A DNA stretch of 46,087 bases, taken from positions 1-46,087 of the IMG/VR virus record IMGVR_UViG_3300033182_000744. One strand, given 5' to 3'. Of this stretch, positions 2,546-46,036 are shown in pieces. The translations under genes and the position numbers were made by a program. Numbering within the stretch: position 1 is the stretch's first letter; every line of letters starts with the position of its first letter. The stretch comes from a virus. The notes under the pieces were generated by a model. The model did not search any database and was not told where the DNA came from. It saw nothing but the letters and a program-made list of their open reading frames with translations.

Positions 2546-4225
2546 TCAAATTTTACGAAGTAAGTAATTACCCAACACCAAATAGTCCATATCACATTTT
2601 AAGAATGTTTCTATGGCTGTTTTTGGGTCATTTACCATTGTTTGTCCTTTGAGATTAAAGGAAGTGTTTAATAGAATTGGATACCCACTATCTTTCTCAA
2701 ATTGTTTCAGTAGTTTGTATATTCGTTTGTTGTTTTCTCTAACCGTTTGTATTCTCGCACTCCCATCTACGTGTGTGATAGATGGTAAAGACTTTTGGTA
2801 TTTTTCATTCACCTGAACTACTTGGTTCATATATGGGACATCCTCGGTATAATCAAAATAAGTTGATTGGTCATCATAGGTCACCATTGGTGCAAACGGA
2901 CGGAACCCTTCTCGTTTCTTTACAACTTGATTTACTCGGTCTCTCATATGTATCATTGTTGGGTTTGCGAGTATAGACCGATGACCCAATGCCCTAGCAC
3001 CAAACTCTAACTCCCCCTCAAACCAACCAACAACTGAACCTCCATTGATTAGTTTAGATATTTCCTCAATCAATACATCATCATCTAAACGAGAAAACCC
3101 TACATACATTATATACTTTGATATGTCATCTAATATTTGTCCATCGGTATAGGATGGCCCTAAAAATGGATTAGTATTGACCACTCGTTGTTTGGGGTCT
3201 TGGTTGGTATAATAAAAATGTAAACACACTCCAATAGCAGAACCCGCGTCACTTGGAGCAGGGGGAACCCATAAATTCGTAAACTTGGTCTTTTGTTTTA
3301 TCTTACCGTTAGCAGTTCCATTGTACGCACATCCACCCCCTAAACATAAATTAGTAATACCTGTTTCGTTTTGTATATAGTTTAGTAAGTTAAATAAAAT
3401 AGTTTCGTAGTGATATTGTAGGGTGGCGGCTAAGTCTTTGTGTTTCTGTTCTATCTCATCTTCAGGAAATCTGTTTTCCATTTCAAACAGTTCCATCATC
3501 TTTGAGTTAAACATTATCTCATCACTTTTCTCAAACTCAAAGTATTTCATATTCAGTTTATAATCACCCCAATACAATTCGTAAAGTTTCTCAAATTGTT
3601 TGTCATAGACAGAAAAATCACCATAGGGGGCGAGACCCATAACTTTATACTCACCTTCGTTTGGTTGGAATCCTAGAAAAGCGGTGATGGTTGAGTATAA
3701 CATTCCCAATGAATGTGGGAAGTTTATAGACTTTATTTTTTTAGTATGATTTCCTTTTCCAACAGAGATTGATGTAGTTTCCCATTCACCAACCCCGTCA
3801 ACTGATAATATAATTGACTCATTAAAAGGTGATGTATAGTATGAATACCCAATATGGGATTGATGGTGATTACCTGATACTACGGTTGCATTTGGAAAGT
3901 CTTTTTTAAAACTATCATACACTCGTTTATAGTAACCCTCAACTTTGTAAGGTTTAGTGGACAAAAGTGATGATGTTTTTTTAACACGGTCAACTTTTAA
4001 GTCAGGGTCTTCATAAAAACAAACATATGATATATCATCACCCGTCAATTCATTCTGTGATAATATCCACTCAATTGATTTGTTTGGATATGAACTGTCG
4101 TGTTTGATTCCTGTGAACCGTTCTTCTTCAACTGCAGATAATACTTTACCATTTAAAGTCAAACATACTGCGGAGTCGTGGTATCCACAACTAATTCCTA
4201 TTATGTATTTATCTGTAAGATTCAA
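2546..4225 (-). CDS. NodU/CmcH-family carbamoyltransferase
   Basis: A 559-residue O-carbamoyltransferase of the NodU/CmcH/TobZ family, which uses carbamoyl phosphate and ATP to carbamoylate hydroxyls on sugars or other small acceptors. The N-terminal Kae1-like ATP-binding lobe begins with GYHDSA (residues 14-19) and EEERFTGIKHD (33-43). The C-terminal lobe has GFRPFAPM near 438 and LLNTSFN near 518, both family hallmarks. The start codon is TTG, in a TTGA overlap with the stop of the GIY-YIG gene; it cannot start later because the first motif is only 14 residues in. The acceptor is unknown: modified DNA bases, host glycan or virion glycan are all possible. Two glycosyltransferase-like genes lie elsewhere in the window (29809-30726 and 40748-41440). 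Confidence 0.9.
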   Translation of the reverse strand: MNLTDKYIIGISCGYHDSAVCLTLNGKVLSAVEEERFTGIKHDSSYPNKSIEWILSQNELTGDDISYVCFYEDPDLKVDRVKKTSSLLSTKPYKVEGYYKRVYDSFKKDFPNATVVSGNHHQSHIGYSYYTSPFNESIILSVDGVGEWETTSISVGKGNHTKKIKSINFPHSLGMLYSTITAFLGFQPNEGEYKVMGLAPYGDFSVYDKQFEKLYELYWGDYKLNMKYFEFEKSDEIMFNSKMMELFEMENRFPEDEIEQKHKDLAATLQYHYETILFNLLNYIQNETGITNLCLGGGCAYNGTANGKIKQKTKFTNLWVPPAPSDAGSAIGVCLHFYYTNQDPKQRVVNTNPFLGPSYTDGQILDDISKYIMYVGFSRLDDDVLIEEISKLINGGSVVGWFEGELEFGARALGHRSILANPTMIHMRDRVNQVVKKREGFRPFAPMVTYDDQSTYFDYTEDVPYMNQVVQVNEKYQKSLPSITHVDGSARIQTVRENNKRIYKLLKQFEKDSGYPILLNTSFNLKGQTMVNDPKTAIETFLKCDMDYLVLGNYLLRKI

Positions 4226-26370: not shown

Positions 26371-26505
26371 TTATTTTTTCTTATTTTGTTTTATTACATT
26401 CTTGGCTACTTTTTCAAGACTTGTATGTCCCATCTTCGCCATTAGTTTTAGTGTCTTTGCACTAAAGTTCATTTCTTGTTTGATGTTTGTTTTATTACTT
26501 TTCAT
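26371..26505 (-). CDS. Small basic protein (44 aa)
   Basis: A 44-codon frame, MKSNKTNIKQEMNFSAKTLK continuing to VIKQNKKK, overlapping the end of the VWA-protein gene by 11 bases. Basic and helical. Its packing against the upstream stop supports a real gene; no function known. Confidence 0.5.
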   Translation of the reverse strand: MKSNKTNIKQEMNFSAKTLKLMAKMGHTSLEKVAKNVIKQNKKK

Positions 26506-28438
26506 TTAAGAACATATTTTGTAGTTGTTTGATAAGTTTTGGTAAAGATGTCGGGTCAATGAATGACGCGTCTTTACCATACATAGTTTGGAAGTTCTGT
26601 TTTTCACTCGGGGTATTGTAACCATCATCGGTGATAAAGAACGATAAGACAGTATAACCATTTTTTCTCAATGTGTCAACTTGTTTTTTAGTCTGTTTAA
26701 CCGCAGGTTCTCCACCATAACTCTCAAAGTAAGGAGCACCATCGGAGTAGTTGATGAAGTAGGTTTTGAGAGCATCACTACCTGTGGGTAGTTGTTTCAT
26801 AATAGATTCAAAACATAAACCTTCAGGGGTCAATCCGTTCCACACGAACCGTCCAAAGTGTTTTTTAATGTCTTTCATTGTTTGTTTCCGTGAATCATAC
26901 GCAACCCACATCACAGGTTTTTGTTCCATTCCGAAATTTTCCGTGTATCTGAAAGAGATTTGGACATCAATGTTGGTCATAGAAGCCATTTGAGCAATCG
27001 CGACTGCACTAATCAGGGAGTTTCTAAACTTACTCCCCGACATACTACCACTACCATCAATGGATAAGTGTAAGAAAGCATCAGAGTGTTTCTCTATAAT
27101 ACTTTGGTGAAATATGTTGTAGTCACCCGCACCAACAGCGTGTAATCTTCGTTTCTCAATCCGTCCTTTCTTTTGTCGGTTGATGTCGGTTTGAGTTTCA
27201 CGGTTTCTGATTTGGAGTTTCTTACCCAATTTCTTACCAAGTAAAATACCCTCTCTAACCTCATTCTCGTGATAATCTCTCATATGTATAGACTTCATAT
27301 TGTCAAACATATTGAAGTTGGACTCGGAAAGACCGTGTAGAACAACTACATCGGTTTTTACTTTATCACCCCAATGATTGTCATACTCAACTTCAACAAC
27401 TTTTGAGGAATCAGATTGTAAAGTTTTTACTGTTTGGGCGAGAGATTTGGAAAGTTTACCTTTCTGAATATCACCTTCTAAAAACTTTTTTTGTTTCTCA
27501 ATCTTTTTACTAAGTTGTTGTTTTTGACGGTCAGTCAGTTCTTCTAACTCCTCTTCTCCCGACTCACCACCACCTTGGGTTGAGTCTTGAGGGGATGATT
27601 CGGAACCACCACCTTGACCATTACCTTGACTGTCGGTTTCAATACCGTTCTCTTTGTTCTCATCTGTTTGTTCTTGGTCACCTGACTCATCATTTTCGGT
27701 GTCAGGTTCTTGTTGGTCAACTTGAATGTTTTTCATAATCAAGTTAAACACCTTGACTGTTGTAGTCAAAGCATCCAATGTTGATTCCATCTTTGGAACT
27801 TGGGAGAAAATCAAGTTGTGAATGGTTCGTAAATCAGGAAGAGCGTCCAAGTCACTATTCTCGTTGACCAAGTTGATGATTCTATTGAAGTAAGATTCAA
27901 GTGTCAATTCTCTGAATTCAGGAGAACGTAGCATCTTATCAATCACTTTGTCGTTGAAGTATCTATCGTAAAGGGATTGATAGTAACCCGTATAGCCGGG
28001 AGAAGTAGTGTAGACATAACGGTCAATACGTCTGTCTTCTATGTAATTTAGAAGTCCTCTAAATTCTTCTCGGTGTTCTAGTAGTTGTTCACGTAACTCA
28101 TCAGTCATCAACCCAAGTCTTTCAATTCTGTCAAATAGATTGGGGAGAAGTGAGAAGTCAGTTAGTTTGATGTGAGACGCTTCGTGAAGGGCTAGACCCA
28201 CAACACTATCAAAGTTTCTTTCATCAATCGTAGACCCAATGACAATCTTATGAGAGTCAGTATAAGAGTCACCTGAATCACGGTACTCAACGGGGATTGA
28301 TTCTTTTGTTAGAATACGAACGAAGTTAGAAATAACACGTTGGTATTTGGCGAGTTTGAGGGGGTCTTTGTCTTTGGTAGATAAATCACCAATGTATTTA
28401 TCATCTAACCAATAAGAAGAGAATAATTGTGAATTCAT
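26495..28438 (-). CDS. Metallopeptidase-motif / VWA-domain protein (CobT-like partner of AAA+ ATPase)
   Basis: A 647-residue protein. An HExxH zinc-peptidase motif (ALHEASHIKL) lies near residue 85. A low-complexity Gln/Glu/Gly stretch runs about 255-310, and a C-terminal von Willebrand A domain has an intact MIDAS DGSGSMS near residue 461 and a later NYSDGAP. VWA proteins with an acidic linker pair with MoxR/CobS AAA+ ATPases, and a matching ATPase lies at 43950-45137. Related pairs occur in T4-like cyanophages, often named CobS/peptidase, with no proven role. The frame extends to a TTG at 28486, but a promoter at 28469-28497 would start transcription near 28462, so I prefer ATG 28438, which is preceded by ACCCTAGACATATG, close to the repeated start-codon element. 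Confidence 0.85.
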   Translation of the reverse strand: MNSQLFSSYWLDDKYIGDLSTKDKDPLKLAKYQRVISNFVRILTKESIPVEYRDSGDSYTDSHKIVIGSTIDERNFDSVVGLALHEASHIKLTDFSLLPNLFDRIERLGLMTDELREQLLEHREEFRGLLNYIEDRRIDRYVYTTSPGYTGYYQSLYDRYFNDKVIDKMLRSPEFRELTLESYFNRIINLVNENSDLDALPDLRTIHNLIFSQVPKMESTLDALTTTVKVFNLIMKNIQVDQQEPDTENDESGDQEQTDENKENGIETDSQGNGQGGGSESSPQDSTQGGGESGEEELEELTDRQKQQLSKKIEKQKKFLEGDIQKGKLSKSLAQTVKTLQSDSSKVVEVEYDNHWGDKVKTDVVVLHGLSESNFNMFDNMKSIHMRDYHENEVREGILLGKKLGKKLQIRNRETQTDINRQKKGRIEKRRLHAVGAGDYNIFHQSIIEKHSDAFLHLSIDGSGSMSGSKFRNSLISAVAIAQMASMTNIDVQISFRYTENFGMEQKPVMWVAYDSRKQTMKDIKKHFGRFVWNGLTPEGLCFESIMKQLPTGSDALKTYFINYSDGAPYFESYGGEPAVKQTKKQVDTLRKNGYTVLSFFITDDGYNTPSEKQNFQTMYGKDASFIDPTSLPKLIKQLQNMFLNEK

Positions 28439-28468
28439 ATGTCTAGGGTTGTTTCTCATTACATAATT

Positions 28469-28497
28469 AAGATACACAATCCCCAAATCAATGTCAA
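28469..28497 (-). promoter_or_regulatory. Sigma70-like promoter for the VWA-protein gene
   Basis: TTGACA (plus 28492-28497) and TATCTT (plus 28469-28474) separated by exactly 17 bases, with the extended -35 TTGACATTGAT that recurs at 39936 and 45686. It resolves the start codon of the downstream gene. Confidence 0.75.
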
Positions 28498-30726: not shown

Positions 30727-32433
30727 CTAGCCCTCACACGCAATACAAACTAAATCGTTCATATTAAGTTTCTTTCTAGCAAACGCTTGAGCAGAGTTCA
30801 TTGAGTGTTGATAGTATAATGTTTTAACTCCCAACTTCCACGCATCAATCAACAATTTGTTTATATCTTTTGTTGGCATATCAGGTGAAATCATCAAATT
30901 CAATGACTGTGATTGGTCAATATAATCTTGACGGATTGCGGCTTGATTGATAATAGATGATTGGTTTATTTCTGCAAACGTTCTAAACACTTCTTTTTGT
31001 TCGTCTGTCAAAAAGTCTAAATGTTGAACCGACCCATCTTGTTCTTTAATACTATTCCAAACTTCTTTTGTATCTTTACCAAGTTCTTTTAATAGTTTTT
31101 TAAGAACAGGATTCCTTACAGTAACTTTCATTTTTGCTAAGTCTTTGACATAACAGTTACTGAATAATGGTTCTATGGATTGAGATACTTGACCTAAAAT
31201 AAAAGCAGATGAAGTCGTAGGTGCAATAGCATTTAAGGTTACATTACGTCTACCATATCCCTTTAAGTATTCAGGTTCACCAAACATACGGGCTAATTCT
31301 TTAGAAGCATAATATGATTTCTCTTGTATTAAACTAAATACTTCTACATTTAGTCTAGCAGTATCTCGGGAGTCAAACGGTAATCCTTTGGACTGTAACA
31401 ATGAATGCCAACCCAATACACCCAATCCTAATGCTCGTTGTCGGGTAGCAAAGTTATATGCTTTTTCCATAAATCCAAAAGCACGTTCACCTTCTTTGGT
31501 TCCATTGTCACGGAGTGTTTCTAACTTGGTACAAAACTCTGTGTTGACTGCGTCTAAAAAGAATGTTAAAACTTCTACCGCGTCTGTATTCTTCCATTCA
31601 TCATAATGTAATAAGTTCATAGAAGAAAGAACACAAACAAATGATTCTTCACCTGAATTGTGAAGTGCAATTTCTGAACAAAGGTTTGAGTTGTAGATTG
31701 TTGCACCTTTATCTTTATATACATCTACGGTGTTGTTATTCATCGTGTCGTGGAACATAATGTAAGGATAGCCAATCTCACCTCGTCTTTGAATTACTTT
31801 AGCCCAAATCGCTCTCTTTTCACTATCCCCACCAATCATTTCTTCCATAAACTTATCGGTTACGGTGACTGCGTGGGTGAGGTCTTGGATAGGAGCACCT
31901 TCGGTTCCAATATCCAAAAACTCCATAATGTCGGGATGTTCTATGGGTAGGTATGGAGAGAATCTACCTCTACGAGTTGAACCTTGTGATATGTTATCTA
32001 CTACCGCCTCAAACAGATTCATAAAGTGAACCGCGCCGGGCGCCAATCCATTGTCCGTAACAGGTTCTCCTCTACCTCTAATGTTTCCAAAGTAACCCGA
32101 TGTCCCACCACCCATCTTACTCATCTCACCAACTTCTGCTGACGTATAAAGTATTGACTCAATATTATCTTGGATGTTAGAACCAAAACAAGAAACAGGT
32201 AATCCTCTTTTCTTTCCAAAGTTCGCCCATACAGGGGATGATAAAGAAAACCAACCTCTACTCATATAGTCGTAAAACTTATTTGAGAATCCTTCTATCT
32301 CTAATATCTTTTCTGCGTGGTCTGCTATTGTTTTTATTCGTTCTTCTGCGGATTCACCTTCACTTAAATATCCACGTTGTAAAAAGGTTATAGACTCCTT
32401 TGTGAGCCAATCAAAAGGTTTTCTTTCGGTCAT
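30727..32433 (-). CDS. nrdA: Class I ribonucleotide reductase large subunit
   Basis: A 568-residue catalytic subunit reducing ribonucleoside diphosphates. The catalytic residues are present: Cys82 in PVSCFGSN, the N-x-C-x-E set in NSNLCSEI (N250, C252, E254), the partner Cys267 in SFVCVLSSMNL, the Tyr pair in LYYQHSMNS, and a C-terminal redox CxxC in VCIACEG. It is short for NrdA because it has no N-terminal ATP-cone; the protein starts directly at the ten-stranded barrel domain. That regulatory domain is instead on NrdB, the gene before it. The spacing to NrdB is 20 bases. Confidence 0.96.
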   Translation of the reverse strand: MTERKPFDWLTKESITFLQRGYLSEGESAEERIKTIADHAEKILEIEGFSNKFYDYMSRGWFSLSSPVWANFGKKRGLPVSCFGSNIQDNIESILYTSAEVGEMSKMGGGTSGYFGNIRGRGEPVTDNGLAPGAVHFMNLFEAVVDNISQGSTRRGRFSPYLPIEHPDIMEFLDIGTEGAPIQDLTHAVTVTDKFMEEMIGGDSEKRAIWAKVIQRRGEIGYPYIMFHDTMNNNTVDVYKDKGATIYNSNLCSEIALHNSGEESFVCVLSSMNLLHYDEWKNTDAVEVLTFFLDAVNTEFCTKLETLRDNGTKEGERAFGFMEKAYNFATRQRALGLGVLGWHSLLQSKGLPFDSRDTARLNVEVFSLIQEKSYYASKELARMFGEPEYLKGYGRRNVTLNAIAPTTSSAFILGQVSQSIEPLFSNCYVKDLAKMKVTVRNPVLKKLLKELGKDTKEVWNSIKEQDGSVQHLDFLTDEQKEVFRTFAEINQSSIINQAAIRQDYIDQSQSLNLMISPDMPTKDINKLLIDAWKLGVKTLYYQHSMNSAQAFARKKLNMNDLVCIACEG

Positions 32434-32453: not shown

Positions 32454-33701
32454 TTAAAATAAATCGTCTGATGTAATAGACTTTTGACGTTTGAAATAAT
32501 TGATACTACGTTTGTTAAAGAAGTCCGTATGTTTAGTAGCAAGGATTTCATCATCAAACCATTCAGTATTTTCTAATAACGTTTCATCTACCTTAAAGAT
32601 TCCATCAATACCAATACTTTCTAATGAAGTATTAAAACGGTATTTGATAAACTCCAAGGTTTCTTGTTTAGTGAGGAAGTCCAAATCACCCTCCTCAAAC
32701 ATCCACTCCACTATATCTGACTCTGCGTCAAATGCGTCAATGGTTGCGTCAATAATATCTGAAACTAATTCATCCGACCACCACGATGGATTTTCTGATT
32801 TAATTAAGTTGACCAAATCAAATCCAAACTCTGCGTGTATCTTTTCTTCTTTGGATGTAGCTTCAACTGCGTTACTGATTCCTTTTAACACGTTCTTGTG
32901 TTTGTTAAAAGCCATAATCACTAAAAATTGAGAAAACAATGATACGTTCTCCACGAACATAGAGAATAGTATAACGGTCTCAAAGTATTCTTTGTTTTCT
33001 AATACACTTGAATTAGCAATAGACTTCTCTAAATACTTTACACGTTTACGGATGGCAGGAACTTGTAGTAAGGTTTCAAACTCTTTGTTGAGTCCTAACA
33101 CTTTGATTAGATTGGAGTATGCGTCTGCGTGTCTAACTTCTGATTCTGCAAATGTAGCTCCAACGTTTCCAATCTCGGGTTTAGGCATCTTCTTGTAAAT
33201 GTCACCCCAAAAAGTTTTTACCGCTACTTCTATTTGAGAAATAGCCAACATCGCACGTTTTACCGCAGTCTGTTCTTTGTGTGATAAGTTTACTTTAAAG
33301 TCCTGAATATCACTTGTAAAGTTAAACTCGGTATGAACCCAATAGGAATGTCTAATCGCGTCTACGTAGTCGTTTAACTGTGGATATTCGTAGGGTTTTA
33401 GATTAGTTCTCTTGTTAAAGATATTGGGTCGGTGTTTATCTCTATAAAGGATATATGATTTTGCTACATCATTCAACCCAATATTCATCAACTCGTTTTC
33501 AACCAAGTCGTGTATATTATCAACGGTTGGGTTTTCTATCTCACCGTTCCATAGTTGAATGGTTACATTGGATGACACAGAAGATGCCATATATTCATTG
33601 ACATCACCCACTTCTTCCATTGCTTTTAGAACGGCTCGGGTTATTTTTTCAGGTTGGAATAATTCTTTTTCAGCGTTTCGTTTAATAACGTATTGTAGCA
33701 T
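32454..33701 (-). CDS. nrdB: Ribonucleotide reductase small subunit with N-terminal ATP-cone
   Basis: A 415-residue radical-generating subunit. Residues 1 to about 90 are an ATP-cone (YVIKRNAEKELFQPEKITRA, then AKSYILYRDKHR), the allosteric on/off domain usually found on NrdA. The ferritin-like core carries the metal ligands E158, E188/H191 (SEVRH), E251 and E286/H289 (EEKIHAEF), and Tyr195 is at the position of the E. coli radical tyrosine (E-x2-H-x3-Y). ATP-cones on NrdB were described in Leeuwenhoekiella blandensis, a marine flavobacterium, so host-lineage origin is plausible. Overall activity control by dATP would then act through this subunit. Metal identity and radical type are not readable here. 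Confidence 0.95.
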   Translation of the reverse strand: MLQYVIKRNAEKELFQPEKITRAVLKAMEEVGDVNEYMASSVSSNVTIQLWNGEIENPTVDNIHDLVENELMNIGLNDVAKSYILYRDKHRPNIFNKRTNLKPYEYPQLNDYVDAIRHSYWVHTEFNFTSDIQDFKVNLSHKEQTAVKRAMLAISQIEVAVKTFWGDIYKKMPKPEIGNVGATFAESEVRHADAYSNLIKVLGLNKEFETLLQVPAIRKRVKYLEKSIANSSVLENKEYFETVILFSMFVENVSLFSQFLVIMAFNKHKNVLKGISNAVEATSKEEKIHAEFGFDLVNLIKSENPSWWSDELVSDIIDATIDAFDAESDIVEWMFEEGDLDFLTKQETLEFIKYRFNTSLESIGIDGIFKVDETLLENTEWFDDEILATKHTDFFNKRSINYFKRQKSITSDDLF

Positions 33702-33796
33702 ATATCTCTTTGATTATAGGTTTTTTGGAATGAGTAAATAAATAGAATATATATTGGGATTGTAGAATAGAATATTAGATTTTTTACATAAAATCT

Positions 33797-35185: not shown

Positions 35186-35766
35186 TATAGAAGTTGAAGA
35201 GCTTTGTCAATTTTTGTTTGAGGGATTTTGTAGTCAAGGACTTGTTCAATCGCCTTTTCAAGAGATAACTGACCAAACACATAATTCTCGGTGGTGGTCA
35301 TCTCTCGTAACATTCTCACTACATCAGGTAGTGAACCAAAACTTGGTCGGTTGTTTACCGAAATCCACTTGGTAGAAACATCAATTTTAGTTCCATTGTC
35401 AGTAACCATATCTCGGTCATCGTTCATCTCATACAAATCAATCATTCCGTTGAAACTTCCCATTTGGAACATCTTAGCAAATGAGTGGACATCTTCGTAA
35501 ATCTGTTCATCAACTCCGTTTCCATATGAATCGGAAATGTAAATACTAACTGAATTACCACCCGAGAAAGAACTAGAGGTAGAACTAACAGTAACACTTG
35601 GAAAGTTTTTCTTCACATATTGTTTGATAACACTAGCAGTCGCAACGTGACTCATATAAATTTCAGGAGAGTCAAGTTCTTCACCGTTCCAACTGTGAGT
35701 ACGTAAGTGTTTTTGAGGAAGTTGGAAGGTCATTCCGTTTAGATTGAATTTGAATTTTTTAGACAT
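35185..35766 (-). CDS. LPD29-like domain protein
   Basis: A 193-residue protein. Residues about 39-115 (SHVATASVIKQYVKKNFPSV, then SVSIYISDSYGNGVDEQIYE and a closing FNGMIDLYE) resemble the LPD29 large-polyvalent-protein-associated domain, seen in phage and plasmid proteins that may bind nucleic acid or enter the host cell. The rest is helical with no motif. It is the first gene after promoter 35799-35827 and carries the AAACCCTTACTATTATG element at its start codon. Confidence 0.65.
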   Translation of the reverse strand: MSKKFKFNLNGMTFQLPQKHLRTHSWNGEELDSPEIYMSHVATASVIKQYVKKNFPSVTVSSTSSSFSGGNSVSIYISDSYGNGVDEQIYEDVHSFAKMFQMGSFNGMIDLYEMNDDRDMVTDNGTKIDVSTKWISVNNRPSFGSLPDVVRMLREMTTTENYVFGQLSLEKAIEQVLDYKIPQTKIDKALQLL

Positions 35767-35798
35767 AATAGTAAGGGTTTGATTAACATTACATAAGA

Positions 35799-36200: not shown

Positions 36201-36662
36201 TTATTTTAAAATAATATAAAATCTTTTTGCGTGGTTGGGTTCATAATCTCGTATAGAGTCTTGTAATAACTTATCATCCCATTGAACGTCCAACATCATT
36301 GTATCACCTTTCATAGAACGTAATGGGCCAATCATATTATAGAATACACCATCATCATCGGTATAACTTCGTTCATTGGTAGTAGCCATTCTAATGGTGT
36401 TGTAATAGGAATATAGGTTAGACCTCCACTCAATTCGTTTGTTTTCAATAGGCGGTGTAACAAATCCTGATACTCGGTGTAATGTTTGAGACTTAGATGT
36501 ATCCATTTGTAAAACGTAATAACCATTTGAGTCAAGTGGTAAGTTGATATTAAACGTTATATCAATGGTTTCTTCTTCAACTGAAGTTGGTGTAGAACAA
36601 CCCGAAAGGGCTAATCCAAGTATTACTATTACTAGATAAATCAGGGGTCGTAATTCTTTCAT
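36201..36662 (-). CDS. Lipoprotein, unknown
   Basis: A 153-residue protein with a lipoprotein signal: MKELRPLIYLVIVILGLALS then the lipobox LALSGC (acylated Cys at 22), followed by STPTSVEE. The acidic linker after the Cys could act as a surface-export signal, as is known in Bacteroidota (inference). The mature part is beta-rich with no family I recognise. It lies directly downstream of the TonB-dependent receptor but beyond a terminator. A weak promoter (TTGTTT, 17 bases, TATATT near 36692) may serve it. A surface lipoprotein beside a TonB receptor recalls SusD-type partners, but it is far too small to be SusD; superinfection exclusion is another option. Confidence 0.8.
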   Translation of the reverse strand: MKELRPLIYLVIVILGLALSGCSTPTSVEEETIDITFNINLPLDSNGYYVLQMDTSKSQTLHRVSGFVTPPIENKRIEWRSNLYSYYNTIRMATTNERSYTDDDGVFYNMIGPLRSMKGDTMMLDVQWDDKLLQDSIRDYEPNHAKRFYIILK

Positions 36663-36720: not shown

Positions 36721-36752
36721 AAAAAAGAGAGATAATTTCTTACCTCTCTTTT
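36718..36752 (-). terminator. Rho-independent terminator after the TonB-dependent receptor
   Basis: Minus-strand stem AAGAGAG / CTCTCTT (plus 36725-36731 with 36744-36750, 12-base loop), followed by a T-run of about nine. It closes the receptor gene 19 bases after its stop. Confidence 0.85.
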
Positions 36753-36770
36753 CAAACCAATTAGTTTAGT

Positions 36771-39467
36771 TTAGAACTCATACTTTAAAGAAGCGTTCCA
36801 AGTTCTACCAAATCCAAACCATACATAGTTACGAACATCAACACCGTTCCAAGTAGTGGAAGTGTCTGTCGCGTGAATGTTGGAGTTAGATTCCGCGATG
36901 TAAGTTGCGTCTAATAAGTTATTGACGTTTACTCGTAGAGTAGCTTTTCCTACTTTACCTGTTACACCTAAATCAAGTAAACCGTAAGAAGGAAGCTTTA
37001 ATGCTCCTTTATTGTTAGGCTCGGTAAAGTCAGAGTCAGTAATAGAGTAGTCGGCGTATAAACCATCTACAAATCTATATCCTAAATCTACGTTCACACC
37101 TTTCACTACTTGATAATCAACCGAAGTATAAGCGGTCAATTGTGCAGCGTCACCAACTTTAGCGTCTTTGGTATAGAGGGTACCTGTACCAATAGATTGT
37201 TGTTGGTCATCAAACAACTCCGCCTCAAAGTCTTTGGTATATCTCCAATCACCTACGGACAACATACCTGATACTTTAAGTGTGTTGATTGGTCGGTAAT
37301 CACCTTCAACCTCAACACCATTGTGTCTTACATCAATGTCACGGAATTGAGCAAATCCATCAACACCCTGTGAGTTAGTTAATGAACGAGATACGAAACG
37401 ATTACCCCATACAGTAGAGTACGCGTTTACATTTAGACGAACTTGTGGACTTAAATATCCATAACCAACTTCTACTGAAGTGATTTGTTCGTTTTGTATA
37501 TCATCGTTCTTGATGTTCGCGTAGTTAGGGAAGATTGCATCAAAGTTAGGCTGACGAGAAATAATACCGGCATTAAAGAATACGTTATTACGGCTGTCTA
37601 GGTTTAAGTTTGCACCACCTTTGATATACCCACCACCTACTGCTACTTTTTCGGAAACAGGAAGTGTTGGTTGGTCAAACAAGTCTTCTCGTTTGTATGT
37701 TTGGTTACTTCCACCCGCTTGTAATACAACGGTAAAGTCATCATTCTTATACTCAACCATAGAGTTTAACCCATACCAACCTACATATCCAATGTTGTAG
37801 TAGTCAATCTTCGGGCCTTTAACTCCTGTGTTTTGGAATGGAGATGCGTCAATCAATGTTTCAATGATTTGACCTGCAGAGTTTTTGTTACCTGTTGAGT
37901 AGTAACCATCAAGTCCCATTAGATTATTGAGAACTCGGTAGTGATACCCTTTGTAGTTACGTAAGTCAACTCCAATGGAAGCTTTTAAGTTATCACTCTC
38001 AAACTCCAAGTTAGAAATACCACCAATCCAATCGTGGGAGTTCATAGATGCTCTACGTACTAGGACTGCTCGGTTTACGTTATCATCACGGAATCCGTTT
38101 GACCCAATAAGTAATCCATTAAACTTACTAATACTACCATCGTATGGATTAGTATTGTCTTGGTTTAATTTAACAATGGCATCAAAGTCAATACTACCAT
38201 CAGGTAAACGAGAACCTCTACCATTCTCTAGGTAATGTTCGGTAAGGTCTTTTTGGTATGGTAAGATGTCAGTTTCCGCGTTGTAGTAATTACGTCCACG
38301 AGGCCCTGTTCCACCACCACGACCTGCGGAACCATACAATGAGGTATTAAGTGTTAGTGATTCACTAATGTCCCAATCCCAATTGAATGTGGCTAATGGT
38401 TTGTTGTAGAAGTTTCTTCTCATAGAGAATTCTTCTCCATTTAGAGTACCACCATTGGAGTTCCAACGTTGGTCAATTCCTGATTCACCGAAGTTTTGAA
38501 AGTCACGGATAGATACCCATACATCCCGTTGGTGGTGCCACTGTCCGGCTCCTAGGAATGAAAAGTTCAAGGAATGTGCTGACCCCTCGGGTTCATATCC
38601 TACGGCTCCAAAATAAGTCCAACCTTCACCTGAAGTATTGTAAACGTATCCGTTACCTGCCCATTTAGAAAGTAGGAAAGAGGACGCCCACCCGTTGGAG
38701 TTTTTACCTGTGTTATATACGATAGAAGTTTTAGTATATCCATCATTACCAACTGTTTGAGAAACAGAACCACCTTGTTCTCTTTCCGCTGCCTTGGTAA
38801 AGATAGAAACCGTACCACCTACCGATGGAACTGCTAGACGAGACGCACCTAAACCTCTTTGAATTTGGATACCACTAGCGACATCGGTTAGACCTTGCCA
38901 GTTACTCCAATACACCCAACCGTTTTCCATATCGTTGACAGGTTGACCGTTGATAAGAAAAGAAGTGTTACGTTGGTCAAATCCACGTAGAGTAATACGG
39001 GAGTCACCATACCCACCACCTTGTTTGGTTGCGTAAACGCCAGGGGTTCGGTTCATTACTTCAGGGAATTCTTGGTTCCCTACTTTTAATCCAATCTCAA
39101 CAGGAGAAATTGTGGAAACCGCAACAGGAGTTTCACGTACTTTCGCTACATCAATAACGCCAGACGTTACTACCACTTCACCCAATACACCTGTTTGTGG
39201 TTGTAGTAAAACTACCATACCATCTACGGCGGCTAAGGTTACGGTTGTATACCCCACAAAGGATATTTGGAGTGAATCACCTTCGGTCACAGAAATAAAA
39301 AAGGAACCATCAAAGCCGGTACTAACACCGTTCGTGGTTCCTTTCTCAACAACTGTTGCAGCCGCAAGTGGTTCATTTGTTTCAGCATCCGTTACGACAC
39401 CCGTAACTTGTGCGTGTGTTGTTAGTGAGGTAAACACCATCACTAAACCAATAAGTAATTGTTTCAT
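36771..39467 (-). CDS. Complete TonB-dependent outer-membrane receptor
   Basis: An intact 898-residue receptor. Order: Sec signal peptide (1-19, ending TTHA before Gln); carboxypeptidase-regulatory-like beta domain (about 20-90, VTGVVTDAETNEPLAAATVV), typical of Bacteroidota receptors; a TonB-box-like GEVVVTSG near 95-103; plug (about 110-235, with MNRTPGVYATKQGGGYGDSR, ITLRGFDQRN, INGQPVND and QIQRGLGASR); then a 22-strand-type barrel ending in KYEF, whose terminal Phe is the usual BAM signal. Substrate not readable; there is no SusD neighbour. It has its own promoter, a palindrome at the start site and a terminator. A phage-encoded TonB lies at 42486. Possible jobs: nutrient uptake in infected cells, or altering surface receptors against competing phages. 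Single intact frame with no decay. Confidence 0.95.
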   Translation of the reverse strand: MKQLLIGLVMVFTSLTTHAQVTGVVTDAETNEPLAAATVVEKGTTNGVSTGFDGSFFISVTEGDSLQISFVGYTTVTLAAVDGMVVLLQPQTGVLGEVVVTSGVIDVAKVRETPVAVSTISPVEIGLKVGNQEFPEVMNRTPGVYATKQGGGYGDSRITLRGFDQRNTSFLINGQPVNDMENGWVYWSNWQGLTDVASGIQIQRGLGASRLAVPSVGGTVSIFTKAAEREQGGSVSQTVGNDGYTKTSIVYNTGKNSNGWASSFLLSKWAGNGYVYNTSGEGWTYFGAVGYEPEGSAHSLNFSFLGAGQWHHQRDVWVSIRDFQNFGESGIDQRWNSNGGTLNGEEFSMRRNFYNKPLATFNWDWDISESLTLNTSLYGSAGRGGGTGPRGRNYYNAETDILPYQKDLTEHYLENGRGSRLPDGSIDFDAIVKLNQDNTNPYDGSISKFNGLLIGSNGFRDDNVNRAVLVRRASMNSHDWIGGISNLEFESDNLKASIGVDLRNYKGYHYRVLNNLMGLDGYYSTGNKNSAGQIIETLIDASPFQNTGVKGPKIDYYNIGYVGWYGLNSMVEYKNDDFTVVLQAGGSNQTYKREDLFDQPTLPVSEKVAVGGGYIKGGANLNLDSRNNVFFNAGIISRQPNFDAIFPNYANIKNDDIQNEQITSVEVGYGYLSPQVRLNVNAYSTVWGNRFVSRSLTNSQGVDGFAQFRDIDVRHNGVEVEGDYRPINTLKVSGMLSVGDWRYTKDFEAELFDDQQQSIGTGTLYTKDAKVGDAAQLTAYTSVDYQVVKGVNVDLGYRFVDGLYADYSITDSDFTEPNNKGALKLPSYGLLDLGVTGKVGKATLRVNVNNLLDATYIAESNSNIHATDTSTTWNGVDVRNYVWFGFGRTWNASLKYEF

Positions 39468-39494: not shown

Positions 39495-39526
39495 AGTTCA
39501 CATATTAAATAGAATATATATGAACT
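39495..39526. promoter_or_regulatory. Operator-like inverted repeat at the receptor start site
   Basis: Arms AGTTCACATAT (39495-39505) and ATATATGAACT (39516-39526) form an 11-bp inverted repeat with one mismatch and a 10-base spacer. It begins 2 bases after the receptor -10 and spans the likely +1, the classical position for a repressor. The arms are unlike the Fur consensus as I know it. A leader hairpin is the alternative. Confidence 0.7.
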
Positions 39527-42357: not shown

Positions 42358-42382
42358 AACTATATAGGTTTTGTTATACTAC

Positions 42383-42411
42383 AATATACACACAATACCC
42401 CCAATGGTCAA
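42383..42411 (-). promoter_or_regulatory. Sigma70-like promoter for the 42357 operon
   Basis: TTGACC (plus 42406-42411), 17-base spacer, TATATT (plus 42383-42388), followed by a short leader to the ATG at 42357. It would drive the run of small genes through DUF5672 to pspC. Confidence 0.72.
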
Positions 42412-42485
42412 ATAAAAAGAACAATACCCCCGTGTCCTACGAAAAAATTTTTGAGAGGGAGTTTTAAGCCCACTTACCTAACCAC

Positions 42486-43133
42486 TTAATCAGTAGTCAA
42501 CCGAAATACAATGGGTAAAGAAAATTGAACTCTAACGGGACGACCACGTTGTAGGCCAGGTACAAACCTAGCTTGTGATACCACACGAAGAGCTTCCTCA
42601 TCACACCCCCCACCAATACCACGTATCACTCTAGGGTTTTCTACCTCGCCTCGTTCATTGACAATAAACTGTATGGTCACTCTCCCCTCTATCCCAGCTC
42701 TTCGGGCCATTTCGGGATACCTGACCTGTCGTTGTAGTTGTCCAATACCACCGACTAGTTGGGGCATTTGTTCTACTACTACAAAGAACTCGGGTTCGGT
42801 GTCTTTGGGGGGAGGGGGAGGTGGTAATAATAATTCATCACCGAAATCAAGTTCTGAATCTAGTTCAATGATTTCGTCTTCAATAATTTCATCGTTGGGA
42901 ACTTCTATGGGTACGGGGGGACGAGGTGGTGGGGGTGGAGTTTCAATTTGTTTGGTCTGTATCACTTCTTCCATAACAATGGTTTCCTGAAAGGTAATAG
43001 GAGGTGGAGTTGGAGGAGCGGAGTATAGGTTAACTCGTACCAATACAATCATAATGGATAGTGAGGTTATCCAACCGATTTGTAGGTGGTGGAGATACCG
43101 TTGTCGTAAGTTAGCTTGTGGAGTTTTTTTCAT
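42486..43133 (-). CDS. tonB: Energy transducer TonB
   Basis: A 215-residue TonB: basic N-terminus, one membrane helix (residues 18-36, ITSLSIMIVLVRVNLYSA region), a periplasmic spacer with proline clusters (66-73 and 104-109) separated by an acidic stretch, and a C-terminal TonB domain (about 123-213) with YPEMARRAGIEGRVTIQFIV, CDEEALRVVSQARFVPGL and PVRVQFSLPIVFRL. This layout is standard for Bacteroidota TonB. TonB transmits proton-motive force from ExbB/ExbD to outer-membrane receptors; no ExbB or ExbD is seen here, so it would use host ones. ATG 43133 was chosen over a TTG at 43202 that lies inside the upstream gene. A likely partner receptor is encoded at 36771-39467. Confidence 0.94.
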   Translation of the reverse strand: MKKTPQANLRQRYLHHLQIGWITSLSIMIVLVRVNLYSAPPTPPPITFQETIVMEEVIQTKQIETPPPPPRPPVPIEVPNDEIIEDEIIELDSELDFGDELLLPPPPPPKDTEPEFFVVVEQMPQLVGGIGQLQRQVRYPEMARRAGIEGRVTIQFIVNERGEVENPRVIRGIGGGCDEEALRVVSQARFVPGLQRGRPVRVQFSLPIVFRLTTD

Positions 43134-43146
43134 AGTAGGTATAACC

Positions 43147-43683
43147 TTAAAAGTTTCCACCACTTCCAGCTCCACCCGAACCAAACTTTCCTTTACCACC
43201 AAAGTTTATTTTGGGGCGGCCAAGTTTGGTTTTTAACATTCCTTCCAATACACCAAAGATAAAATGAACTACTAGGGTAGCGACAAGCTCTACAACCGTA
43301 TAGGAGTTTTTAACCCACCACTCTTTTCCTTTCTTTAACAATGATTTTATCTTTTGATTTTCTGTCATAAATCCTTCGTTGAACTTACTACCTATTTTTT
43401 CTACTTTAATAATAGCGGTACGTAAGGTTTTACCGTCACGGGCTGATTGTAGAATCTGTATTACTTCACGAACAATTGGTTGTTTGTCTTTGGGTAGGTT
43501 TTTGGTGTTTCGGGATATGGATTGGATTAGTTCCCGTTTTATTTGTTCTATTACCCAATCTTCAATAACTCCAACTTTTTCACCCATTTCTATAATAGTA
43601 AGTAACTCTTTGAGTTCACTAAAGTTTTCGTTTATAGGTTGTGGAGTTATGTTAGCAAGTTTTTGTAGTCTTTGTTTATCCAT
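43147..43683 (-). CDS. Single-helix membrane protein upstream of TonB, unknown
   Basis: A 178-residue protein: a soluble helical N-terminal two thirds (MDKQRLQKLANITPQPINEN; DKQPIVREVIQILQSARDGK), one membrane helix near 127-147 (VVELVATLVVHFIFGVLEGM) and a short basic Gly-rich tail (GRPKINFGGKGKFGSGGAGS). It is not ExbB or ExbD. It precedes TonB by 13 bases, so the two are likely co-expressed and perhaps act together at the inner membrane. An AATATTTATAG box lies 26 bases before the ATG. Confidence 0.72.
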   Translation of the reverse strand: MDKQRLQKLANITPQPINENFSELKELLTIIEMGEKVGVIEDWVIEQIKRELIQSISRNTKNLPKDKQPIVREVIQILQSARDGKTLRTAIIKVEKIGSKFNEGFMTENQKIKSLLKKGKEWWVKNSYTVVELVATLVVHFIFGVLEGMLKTKLGRPKINFGGKGKFGSGGAGSGGNF

Positions 43684-43708
43684 TGTATCAGTTGTGTTTG
43701 TTGGTATG

Positions 43709-43720
43709 TCTATAAATATT
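43709..43720 (-). promoter_or_regulatory. ATATTTATA box before the TonB-operon gene
   Basis: Minus-strand AATATTTATAGA, 26 bases before the ATG at 43683. The distance suits a -10 element; no -35 is evident, as in gp55-type late promoters. Confidence 0.4.
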
Positions 43721-43823
43721 ATTTAATAAGGATTATCCTTTTATATAAAAAACCCTTTAAGGAGAAAAAATTGACCCCGTATTGAAAACGTACCCCCCAC
43801 CGCTGTAAGTCATTGTCTTTCAT
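43719..43823 (-). CDS. Possible small protein (34 aa)
   Basis: A 34-codon frame, MKDNDLQRWGVRFQYGVNFF then SLKGFLYKRIILIK. The composition (Trp/Arg/Phe with a basic hydrophobic end) is protein-like rather than random, but there is no clear ribosome site and it lies in a base-skewed gap. Low confidence. Confidence 0.3.
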   Translation of the reverse strand: MKDNDLQRWGVRFQYGVNFFSLKGFLYKRIILIK

Positions 43824-43949
43824 AGGGTTACGTAAAAGGGGGTTAGGGTATAGCGAACTCCCCCCTCCCTTATACTACAAAACCCCACTCTCCACCCCCC
43901 TTACAAGGTGACTAATGAGGTTAAGTAGCCATTATGAAATCACTTAGTA

Positions 43950-45137
43950 TTAGAACATTGGAATCTCACTCTCCTCTACTTGAGGTTGTGGGTCTTCCAC
44001 TTCACTTTCCATAGCGGATTGGAGTAGTTGTTTTAAGTAAGTCAATTCACTATCTACTCCACCTTCTGTTGAGTAGTTGGGATAGACTACGATGTCTAAC
44101 ACTTCTTCCATTGTAAAGCCATCATTGATTAGGCTTACCATCTCTATACTATGTCTAGTAGATAGGTTACGTTCTAGTGTTCCTTCGTCACTCTTTACAT
44201 CTTCTCTTACTAGGGATACTAGTTTAGCCACTGTATTTATTTTAGTGGGTTCTACGTCCGAAAAGATTTTGGAGAGTAACTCTATCTCACCTTCTTCGTC
44301 CAAGTAGTCCATATTGATGGTCACAAATCTATCTTGAAGAGCACGGTCAATCACTCGGGTGGATGTGTATTCCATCCCAATGTTAGCCGTCCCAATGAAT
44401 GTCACCGTAGGGTGGATGTTGATGATAGGAGAGTTGACCGATTCGTCTATTCTCAAATACCGTTGGTTGGGGTCTAACACACTCATCAGGATATTGAAGG
44501 CCTCAGGGTTAGCTCTACTCAACTCGTCCAACAAGATAATGGAGTTGGGTTGTTGAATAGCTTCTATGAACGGAGATTGAGAGAAGAACGTTCCCCGTGA
44601 TTGGTCAAAGTGAGTATTACCTATCAGTGTAGCTCTTGGGTCTTGTGTAGAACCTAAGTTGAAGATATGTAGTGGACGACCTAACGCCTCCGCTAACCAC
44701 TTGACCATCATAGTCTTACCACTTCCTGTTGGGCCACATACCAACATATTCTGTGACCTGATAACACTTCGGACTGCGTACTTCCAACGGAGTTCATCCA
44801 ATACTAGGGTAGATGGTTTCATACCGTAGGACTTTGTATGTATAAATTCTCGTATCTCTTCTGTCTCTTCAGATACTTCCAACGGTTTCTGTAACTCATT
44901 GGTGGGGTTGGACTTAGTGTGGTTAAAGAACATTTCCATATCCACTCGTCTCCATCCGTTGGAGGGTCTAGTAGAATCAAACTCTAACGCTTGTCCTGAT
45001 TCAACAGCCTTCTGTACGGTGATAGGACTAGGTGAGGGTTGGTCGGTTCCTGTCCGTTTATATGTCTGACCACTAGTGGATTCTAGCATATAACGGCCAG
45101 TTTCTGTTTGGAATGGTTTGTAGTATATAGTACTCAT
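43950..45137 (-). CDS. MoxR/CobS-like AAA+ ATPase
   Basis: A 395-residue AAA+ ATPase. After an ~100-residue leader domain, the ATPase has Walker A GPTGSGKT (135-142), Walker B ILLDELSRA (201-209), a sensor-1 FIGTANIG and an arginine-bearing RALQDRF. An acidic tail (EVEDPQPQVEESEIPMF) ends the protein. MoxR/CobS ATPases remodel target complexes with a VWA-domain partner; the VWA/HExxH protein at 26495-28438 is the obvious candidate. Homologues in T4-like cyanophages are named CobS, though a cobalamin role in phage is unproven. The leader contains the hairpin repeats 45161-45338 and the AAACCCTTACATTATG start element; no strong promoter was found directly upstream, so it may be read from 45686. 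Confidence 0.92.
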   Translation of the reverse strand: MSTIYYKPFQTETGRYMLESTSGQTYKRTGTDQPSPSPITVQKAVESGQALEFDSTRPSNGWRRVDMEMFFNHTKSNPTNELQKPLEVSEETEEIREFIHTKSYGMKPSTLVLDELRWKYAVRSVIRSQNMLVCGPTGSGKTMMVKWLAEALGRPLHIFNLGSTQDPRATLIGNTHFDQSRGTFFSQSPFIEAIQQPNSIILLDELSRANPEAFNILMSVLDPNQRYLRIDESVNSPIINIHPTVTFIGTANIGMEYTSTRVIDRALQDRFVTINMDYLDEEGEIELLSKIFSDVEPTKINTVAKLVSLVREDVKSDEGTLERNLSTRHSIEMVSLINDGFTMEEVLDIVVYPNYSTEGGVDSELTYLKQLLQSAMESEVEDPQPQVEESEIPMF

Positions 45138-45160
45138 AATGTAAGGGTTTAGTTTAAGAG

Positions 45161-45338
45161 TAAAAACACATAGTGACTTTCACATCACTATGGAACATTA
45201 ATTATGAAAATAATAACACTTAATCGTAAAACAATCTTAAAGGTTAAAAACACATAGTGCCTTTCACAACACTATGGAATGACTAATACAATGAATAAAA
45301 CAAATAAAAACACATAGTGCCTTTCACAACACTATGGA
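45161..45338 (-). repeat. Three tandem 34-base hairpin repeats in the MoxR leader
   Basis: Copies at 45161-45194, 45245-45278 and 45305-45338; the last two are identical and the first differs at two loop positions. Each holds CATAGTG and CACTATG arms (7-bp stem, 10-base loop CTTTCACA core), followed on the minus strand by GTGTTTTTA. Starts are 84 and 60 bases apart. On RNA they would give three hairpins each followed by a short U-run, like weak terminators or processing sites. They could also be DNA operators. Confidence 0.9.
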
Positions 45339-45378
45339 TGGAGACATCATCTATGAAAAAAACAAATAAAAAACAATC

Positions 45379-45624
45379 TTAAAGACCTGACCAAGTGTAT
45401 TCAGGTTGAAGAATTCCTCTCACACCTTCTCTGTCAATAGAGTCAAACTGACATTCACTTTCAAGTTGAAACAAATACTCAACAACAGCATCAGTAATTT
45501 GTTCTTTAGAAGCGATGGGGTAAATTCCATCGGACTCATTATAAAACTCATTACAGTAGTTGACAAACTCTAACACATCACTCTGTGAGTAATCGTGGTT
45601 GGGAGTGGAATATTTAATGTTCAT
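45379..45624 (-). CDS. Small acidic protein (81 aa)
   Basis: A soluble acidic protein (MNIKYSTPNHDYSQSDVLEF) ending GILQPEYTWSGL. It has its own sigma70-like promoter and the AAACCCTTACTATTATG start element. No family recognised; early-type by position and signals. Confidence 0.68.
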   Translation of the reverse strand: MNIKYSTPNHDYSQSDVLEFVNYCNEFYNESDGIYPIASKEQITDAVVEYLFQLESECQFDSIDREGVRGILQPEYTWSGL

Positions 45625-45662
45625 AATAGTAAGGGTTTGTTTATCATTAACTCAACACTTAT

Positions 45663-45709: not shown

Positions 45710-45937
45710 TTAAAGATTTTCTAATTGTTTAAGTGGGTCAGTAAAATCAACACCAGCAATGGTAGGAGAGGATGTTGGTTCTTCACCGTAAGCCATATAG
45801 TAGTCTAGTATTTCAATCTTCTCTACAATCTCTTTCACTTGTTCAACTTTAGAAGGTTCGTAGTCTAGGACATATCTACGGAGCTCAATAAGTCCACAGA
45901 TTACATCACCGATAATAGAGTCATAAGATTTATTCAT
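45710..45937 (-). CDS. Small acidic protein (75 aa)
   Basis: A helical acidic protein (MNKSYDSIIGDVICGLIELR), with AGVDFTDPLKQLENL at the end. The AAACCCTTACTATTATG element overlaps the stop of the preceding 28-residue gene. No family recognised. Confidence 0.65.
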   Translation of the reverse strand: MNKSYDSIIGDVICGLIELRRYVLDYEPSKVEQVKEIVEKIEILDYYMAYGEEPTSSPTIAGVDFTDPLKQLENL

Positions 45938-45949
45938 AATAGTAAGGGT

Positions 45950-46036
45950 TTAGTTAATTGAAATTGTTTGGTAAGTTTCTCCACTTTCAGTCGTGTGAGT
46001 AGTAATAGTAATTGTTACATCATTTATAGTCATCAT
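45950..46036 (-). CDS. Very small protein (28 aa)
   Basis: A 28-codon frame, MMTINDVTITITTHTTESGE then TYQTISIN, a beta-like peptide. It has the start-proximal element (ACCCCTTACTATTATG) and a -10-like TATATT at 46069-46074; the -35 would lie past the right edge. The regulatory signals, more than the length, support it. Confidence 0.5.
   Translation of the reverse strand: MMTINDVTITITTHTTESGETYQTISIN

Follow-up and report, generated by a model that had tools for sequence, protein, structure and literature searches.

A TonB-dependent receptor gene of Balneolaceae type carried together with a tonB gene by a T4-related phage

This analysis concerns a virus record of 46,087 bases from IMG/VR (the window). 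It carries a gene for a TonB-dependent receptor (TBDR) that, judging from gene order repeated in a second phage contig and from its placement among Balneolaceae, is a host-derived gene on a phage genome. Together with a tonB gene encoded nearby, this suggests that the phage acquired a functional importer, along with a matching TonB, from a host of Balneolaceae type, and that the importer would keep a limiting nutrient entering the infected cell. The analysis drew on sequence and predicted structure throughout, and we regard this explanation as probable, although well short of certain. The original prediction for this DNA, which was made from the sequence alone, had recognized the receptor and overlooked the tonB gene, the repeated transfers of the receptor gene and its Balneolaceae source.

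The TBDR gene occupies positions 36771..39467 on the minus strand and encodes 898 residues; its parts, the tonB and RNR genes, the shared upstream elements, the hairpin and the lipoprotein-like ORF located below are on that strand too. The earlier description of an intact receptor with a signal peptide, a carboxypeptidase-regulatory-like domain, a plug, a barrel and a terminal Phe was borne out by the ORF, Pfam and AlphaFold2, with a candidate signal peptide judged by eye from the translation. The N-terminus, MKQLLIGLVMVFTSLTTHAQ, resembled a signal peptide over residues 1-20 (39408..39467), a segment that was variable in the alignment of relatives. It was followed by a CarboxypepD_reg-like domain at residues 21-100 (39168..39407; PF13715, CarbopepD_reg_2, E 2.1e-12), a plug domain at residues 110-218 (38814..39140; PF07715, E 7.2e-12) and a beta-barrel at residues 232-898 (36774..38774) that ended in Phe, within which Pfam placed the barrel domain TonB_dep_Rec (PF00593) at residues 375-851 (E 3.9e-10). 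All three domains scored above the gathering score. The AlphaFold2 model (mean pLDDT 81.5, pTM 0.77) contained a plug and a barrel of 22 strands by our own count; by its domains and this predicted barrel, the protein is a TonB-dependent receptor. Directly N-terminal of the plug lies a putative TonB box, LGEVVVT (residues 95-101, 39165..39185), and a similar motif preceded the plug in most phage and cellular relatives, being missing or altered in some.

The gene had been placed among phage genes on the same strand. The phage flanks and the shared strand stood, and the strand itself was corrected to minus: the plus-strand reading of the stretch was full of stops, and nearly all window genes were on the minus strand. 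The flanks were of phage type and included a class I ribonucleotide reductase (RNR), a thymidylate synthase and baseplate wedge homologues with relatives in Flavobacterium phage immuto and Microcystis phage Mel-JY01. The best match of the TBDR, 92% identical over the full length, was found between phage flanks on L002, an IMG/VR contig from a different metagenome, rather than on host chromosomes only. Gene order on both TBDR flanks was identical in the window and L002, at phage-level divergence, with one additional ORF after the TBDR in L002. Cellular TBDR orthologues exist at 64-82% identity and would allow for an assembly chimera or host contamination, but both junctions recur in the other metagenome, which makes a fusion of host with phage sequence very unlikely, and TBDRs were carried by contigs of up to 276 kb, four of them with a terminase. 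An artifact of this kind is therefore scarcely credible, and the window TBDR is, on the sequence evidence, judged to be phage-encoded. An O-carbamoyltransferase (2546-4225; PF02543, PF16861) adjoined the tail genes of the window, and homologues of it were located near the TBDRs of L069, L078 and L080. Two distant genes, encoding a vWA/CobT-like protein (26495-28486) and a MoxR/CobS-like AAA ATPase (43950-45137), may act as a pair.

It had been proposed to look for recurrence of the receptor in related phages and metagenomes at the same locus. Relatives were encoded on 414 IMG/VR contigs, and L002 carried its copy at the same locus as the window. The best 80 of the 414 were 64-92% identical to the window protein. 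At 80 of the 81 loci compared, the window counted in, at least two further virus-only gene families were present, "virus-only" meaning that the family was found only in viral loci of this comparison, with the viral label taken from IMG/VR. A terminase was found in 4 of the 39 records searched, which were among the long ones. In INPHARED, full-length relatives numbered just two (33-34% identity), in agreement with the earlier view that TBDRs are not a usual part of described phage genomes. In other phages, the gene immediately before the TBDR encoded IMP dehydrogenase (16 loci) or GroES (7 loci), nrdA preceded the TBDR by a median of 337 bases (13 loci), and clamp loader and DNA polymerase genes lay nearby; the neighbors were nearly always on the same strand. 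The closest relatives of the window nrdA (83-92%) were present in many IMG/VR phages, and window-type NrdA relatives mostly had no TBDR within 10 kb; one 183-kb record had a TBDR elsewhere.

In a tree of phage and cellular copies, the TBDRs of the window and L002 were nested, with starred support, among those of Balneolaceae (L082, L083 and Gracilimonas L084). The nearest cellular TBDR found was that of the Balneolaceae MAG contig L082 (82% identity), which reads as chromosomal by eye, with miaB-, pyrE- and cinA-like neighbors. The L082 and L084 orthologues were 72-82% identical to the window protein over the full length; unlike the window copy, they were surrounded by housekeeping genes, as read from translations, with no RNR or phage genes and a different upstream region. 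A reduced tree, from which the possibly viral MAG contigs L092, L096, L103 and L108 were excluded, gave the same nesting and needed 12 changes of phage/cell label, at least seven of them forced by starred branches; at least nine fell on starred branches in the larger tree. Some cellular copies fell inside phage clades, and label changes were counted without direction of transfer. Given at least seven changes on strongly supported branches, the data indicate that one orthologous TBDR moved repeatedly between bacteria and phages. The TBDRs of the Crocinitomicaceae MAG contig L103 and of virus contig L075 were identical; L103, where the gene has virus-type neighbors, is likely a virus contig binned in a MAG.

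The dN/dS of the TBDR was 0.09 between the window and L002, which puts the gene under purifying selection within phages, and 0.05 between the window and L082, the latter with dS near saturation. Between the window and L082, the plug was 97% identical over residues 107-231, and the extracellular loops were 86% identical compared to 81% for the strands; across phages, the corresponding values were 74% and 72%. The conserved plug and loops argue that ligand binding has been kept.

A tonB gene (42486..43133) was located 3 kb upstream of the TBDR. Its predicted product of 215 aa has the domain layout of a full-length TonB: an N-terminal membrane helix, judged by eye, a Pro/Glu linker and a TonB C-terminal domain (PF03544, E 1.8e-22, 80 bits), with TIGR01352 above its cut-off. 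Over residues 3-213 it shared 76% identity, and the same anchor and linker, with the TonB encoded in the Balneolaceae MAG to which L082 belongs. This was the best match among six cellular genomes; Gracilimonas and the L083 genome gave 65-66%, and other Bacteroidota less than 45%. Two independent genes, the TBDR and tonB, therefore have their nearest cellular relatives in Balneolaceae, which indicates one host family. The place of tonB was variable: the region 42358-43950 of the window corresponds to 3900-6432 of L002, where adenylylsulfate-kinase-like, nucleotidyltransferase-like and DUF2061-like genes stand instead and no tonB is present. PF03544 had no match in a further 79 viral records (78 that were TBDR-bearing or L002, plus one NrdA relative), most of them fragments, and peptide patterns found no TonB in other IMG/VR contigs. 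Since these other TBDR-bearing records, many of them fragments, had none, a phage TonB does not appear to be required for phage TBDRs in general. No exbB or exbD was found in the window, a fragment of 46,087 bases; ExbB/ExbD for the phage TonB would come from the host.

The TBDR shared an upstream element with the RNR genes. The 16-mer ATATATATTCTATTTA was located 54 bases before the TBDR start codon (39506..39521) and, in identical form, 53 bases before the start codon of nrdB (33739..33754), which encodes the class I RNR small subunit with an N-terminal ATP cone (32454..33701; PF00268, PF03477) and is followed by nrdA, the large subunit (30727..32433; PF02867). The exact 16-mer occurred twice in the window, and its 15-base core occurred twice in both the window and L002, before the same two genes; no further copy within two mismatches was found in either. 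It was the longest string common to any two upstream regions of the window, and the resampled null reached 13. Downstream of the TBDR, a terminator-like hairpin with a T run (36722..36753) had a counterpart of the same kind in L002 with a different stem sequence. Based on the shared 16-mer and this hairpin, the TBDR appears to form a separate transcription unit of the same class as the RNR. In T4-like phages, RNR normally belongs to the early or middle genes. The shared element was not seen by eye in the RNR and TBDR upstream regions of L192 or L238 (compared against L003), suggesting that the RNR link is lineage-specific. A sigma-70 promoter scan gave no more matches than shuffled sequence. 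The closest solved structure to NrdB was 5olk from Leeuwenhoekiella blandensis (E 1.7e-157), and this ATP-cone subclass of RNR reportedly relies on a manganese cofactor (PMC6754362). That the TBDR and nrdB are connected through a metal is offered as a suggestion only.

Other repeats were seen in the window. The leader CAAACCCTTACTATT was repeated right before several start codons (35758-35786, 45616-45644 and 45929-45957). TTGACA-17-TATCTT-like boxes preceded it, and the whole may represent one class of early promoters and leaders in this phage. At 45153-45339, three 43-base direct repeats preceded the AAA ATPase gene, each with the hairpin CATAGTG..GTGAAAG.CACTATG and then a T run.

An AlphaFold model had been proposed as a way to a substrate class. 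The fold and profile neighbors were small-ligand importers (BtuB, Fiu, FhuA, FecA and PqqU), with fold matches to FhuA, BtuB and FecA at Z 33-40 and BtuB closest; the resemblance of the modeled fold to BtuB and FecA does not identify the substrate itself. FecA, FhuA, BtuB and PqqU share the plug and 22-strand barrel with the window TBDR, FecA also by plug profile. They are cellular genes without an N-terminal CarboxypepD_reg domain, at about 12-18% identity, and the same substrate is not implied. A SusC/RagA identity was rejected (TIGR04056, 83 bits against a cut-off of 368, residues 20-176 only), as was a SusC/SusD glycan importer, the neighboring ORFs 36201, 39590, 39938 and 40748 having no Pfam match to SusD families, and the vitamin B12 receptor BtuB (TIGR01779, 42 bits against a cut-off of 600). 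No consistent transporter or pathway was found beside the cellular orthologues of 65-71% identity, and the more distant ones followed glucose-6-phosphate isomerase (30 loci, family read from sequence), which gave no clue to the substrate. The ligand would most likely be a metal chelate or some comparable compound about the size of a cofactor.

Known phages offer partial parallels. The megaphage Mar_Mega_1, and LR745206 alongside it, are reported to carry a SusC-type TBDR presumed to be an uptake gene, an auxiliary metabolic gene (PMC9723777), and so resemble the window in having a phage-encoded TBDR proposed for uptake. The passages of that paper covered here mention no tonB and describe no repeated capture. 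Theirs is a different TBDR: the alignment with LR745206 took in just 20% of the query (34% identity), and a BFVD entry, "TonB-dependent receptor SusC [uncultured marine phage]", possibly from the same phage, was 13% identical to the window TBDR. The huge phage LR756501 (735 kb), like the window, encodes a full-length TBDR and its own full-length TonB (266 residues); its TBDR belongs to another family, with 718 aa and no N-terminal CarbopepD_reg seen, and its tonB is 42 kb away. In the region L267 399-5396, that TBDR immediately follows genes whose sequences resemble nicotinate phosphoribosyltransferase and NAD synthase. The temperate phage PA-2 reportedly encodes an outer-membrane barrel, the Lc porin, linked to receptor change; both are phage-borne barrels, although Lc is a porin without TonB and not a system of energized uptake. 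Nothing on this porin precedent was found in the literature searched, and the same search, with most subscription journals outside its range, turned up no publication describing a tonB gene in a phage or its pairing with a TBDR, one TBDR captured repeatedly, or TBDRs of this breadth among phages.

The two functions first proposed were nutrient uptake and the blocking of rival phages through replaced or diluted surface receptors. Uptake fits better, given the tonB gene, the element shared with RNR, the nucleotide-synthesis neighbors and the conserved loops, and exclusion of rivals is the less likely of the two; taken by itself, we consider it unlikely. It would have the phage TBDR replace, dilute or outcompete the host receptor, so that rivals which depend on the host TBDR for adsorption fail. 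FhuA and other TBDRs do serve as phage receptors and are targeted by exclusion factors, for example Cor (PMC11436027), and the FhuA-Llp structure 8a60 was among the fold matches. Repeated capture would also fit if the captured TBDR were a common phage receptor, and a small lipoprotein-like ORF (36201..36662), whose functional link is putative, lies directly downstream of the TBDR and is 90% identical in L002. The lipoprotein, however, had no relatives beside other phage TBDRs, and peptide patterns found none in IMG/VR beyond L002; its structure model (pLDDT 40) was too low for use. Escape from rivals predicts that the loops change most, whereas they were kept as well as or better than the strands. 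A near-identical extra receptor would increase adsorption, and exclusion has no need of a phage tonB. Neither the TBDR nor the lipoprotein matched a defense family in PADLOC, which decides nothing by itself.

The receptor could instead serve the phage's own adsorption or later rounds of infection, by keeping or restoring its receptor, as in lysogenic conversion, or by helping kin reach neighboring cells. TBDRs are frequent phage attachment sites, and the transfers track different host lineages, but a gene content with RNR, thymidylate synthase and a T4-type baseplate makes the phage look lytic, with no integrase noticed, and surplus receptors on a dying cell or its debris would trap progeny; we hold this to be very improbable, slightly more so than the idea that the genes are passenger cargo. 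As passengers, host genes would have entered a variable region accidentally and would bring the phage no advantage. Phages generally pick up host genes, and the variable place of tonB and the extra ORF in L002 are what cargo would leave; against this stand the low dN/dS within phages, the independent and repeated capture of the same orthologue, the conserved upstream element and a terminator kept despite different stem sequences. Cargo is accordingly an improbable account.

The uptake explanation takes from the sequence an intact gene, its phage location, repeated transfer, purifying selection, a paired tonB and a shared upstream element. The TBDR would be made along with the RNR genes, presumably early or in mid-infection, exported and inserted in the outer membrane, where a small ligand would bind to its plug and loops. 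Powered by host ExbB/ExbD, the phage TonB would pull on the plug and let the ligand enter the periplasm, so that supply of a limiting nutrient is maintained once host gene expression falls. The demand of DNA synthesis, with its metal-dependent RNR, is one plausible reason for such uptake. Timing, activity, substrate and benefit are the conjectural part of this scheme, and host TBDRs already in place might suffice for one lytic cycle. The conserved plug and loops and the small-ligand importers among the fold and profile neighbors favor energized uptake, and the repeated passage of one TBDR between bacteria and viruses suggests a use in keeping the infected cell fed.

Where phage genes reshape host metabolism, they mostly work within the cell or at the level of inner-membrane uptake. 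A broader possibility, which we put forward tentatively and hold to be less likely true than false, is that large Bacteroidota and Balneolota phages repeatedly take one importer and run it with the control of DNA precursors, some bringing their own TonB, so that phage control of the energized uptake of a specific nutrient, perhaps the RNR metal, would be a general infection strategy. The finding places in phage genomes a protein class known as phage doorways, and it gives a Balneolaceae host prediction to a T4-related phage that had none. The repeated capture of one orthologue among the many TBDRs of the hosts suggests that its import limits virus production, and this offers a testable route to a nutrient that may control the lysis of marine-type Bacteroidota.
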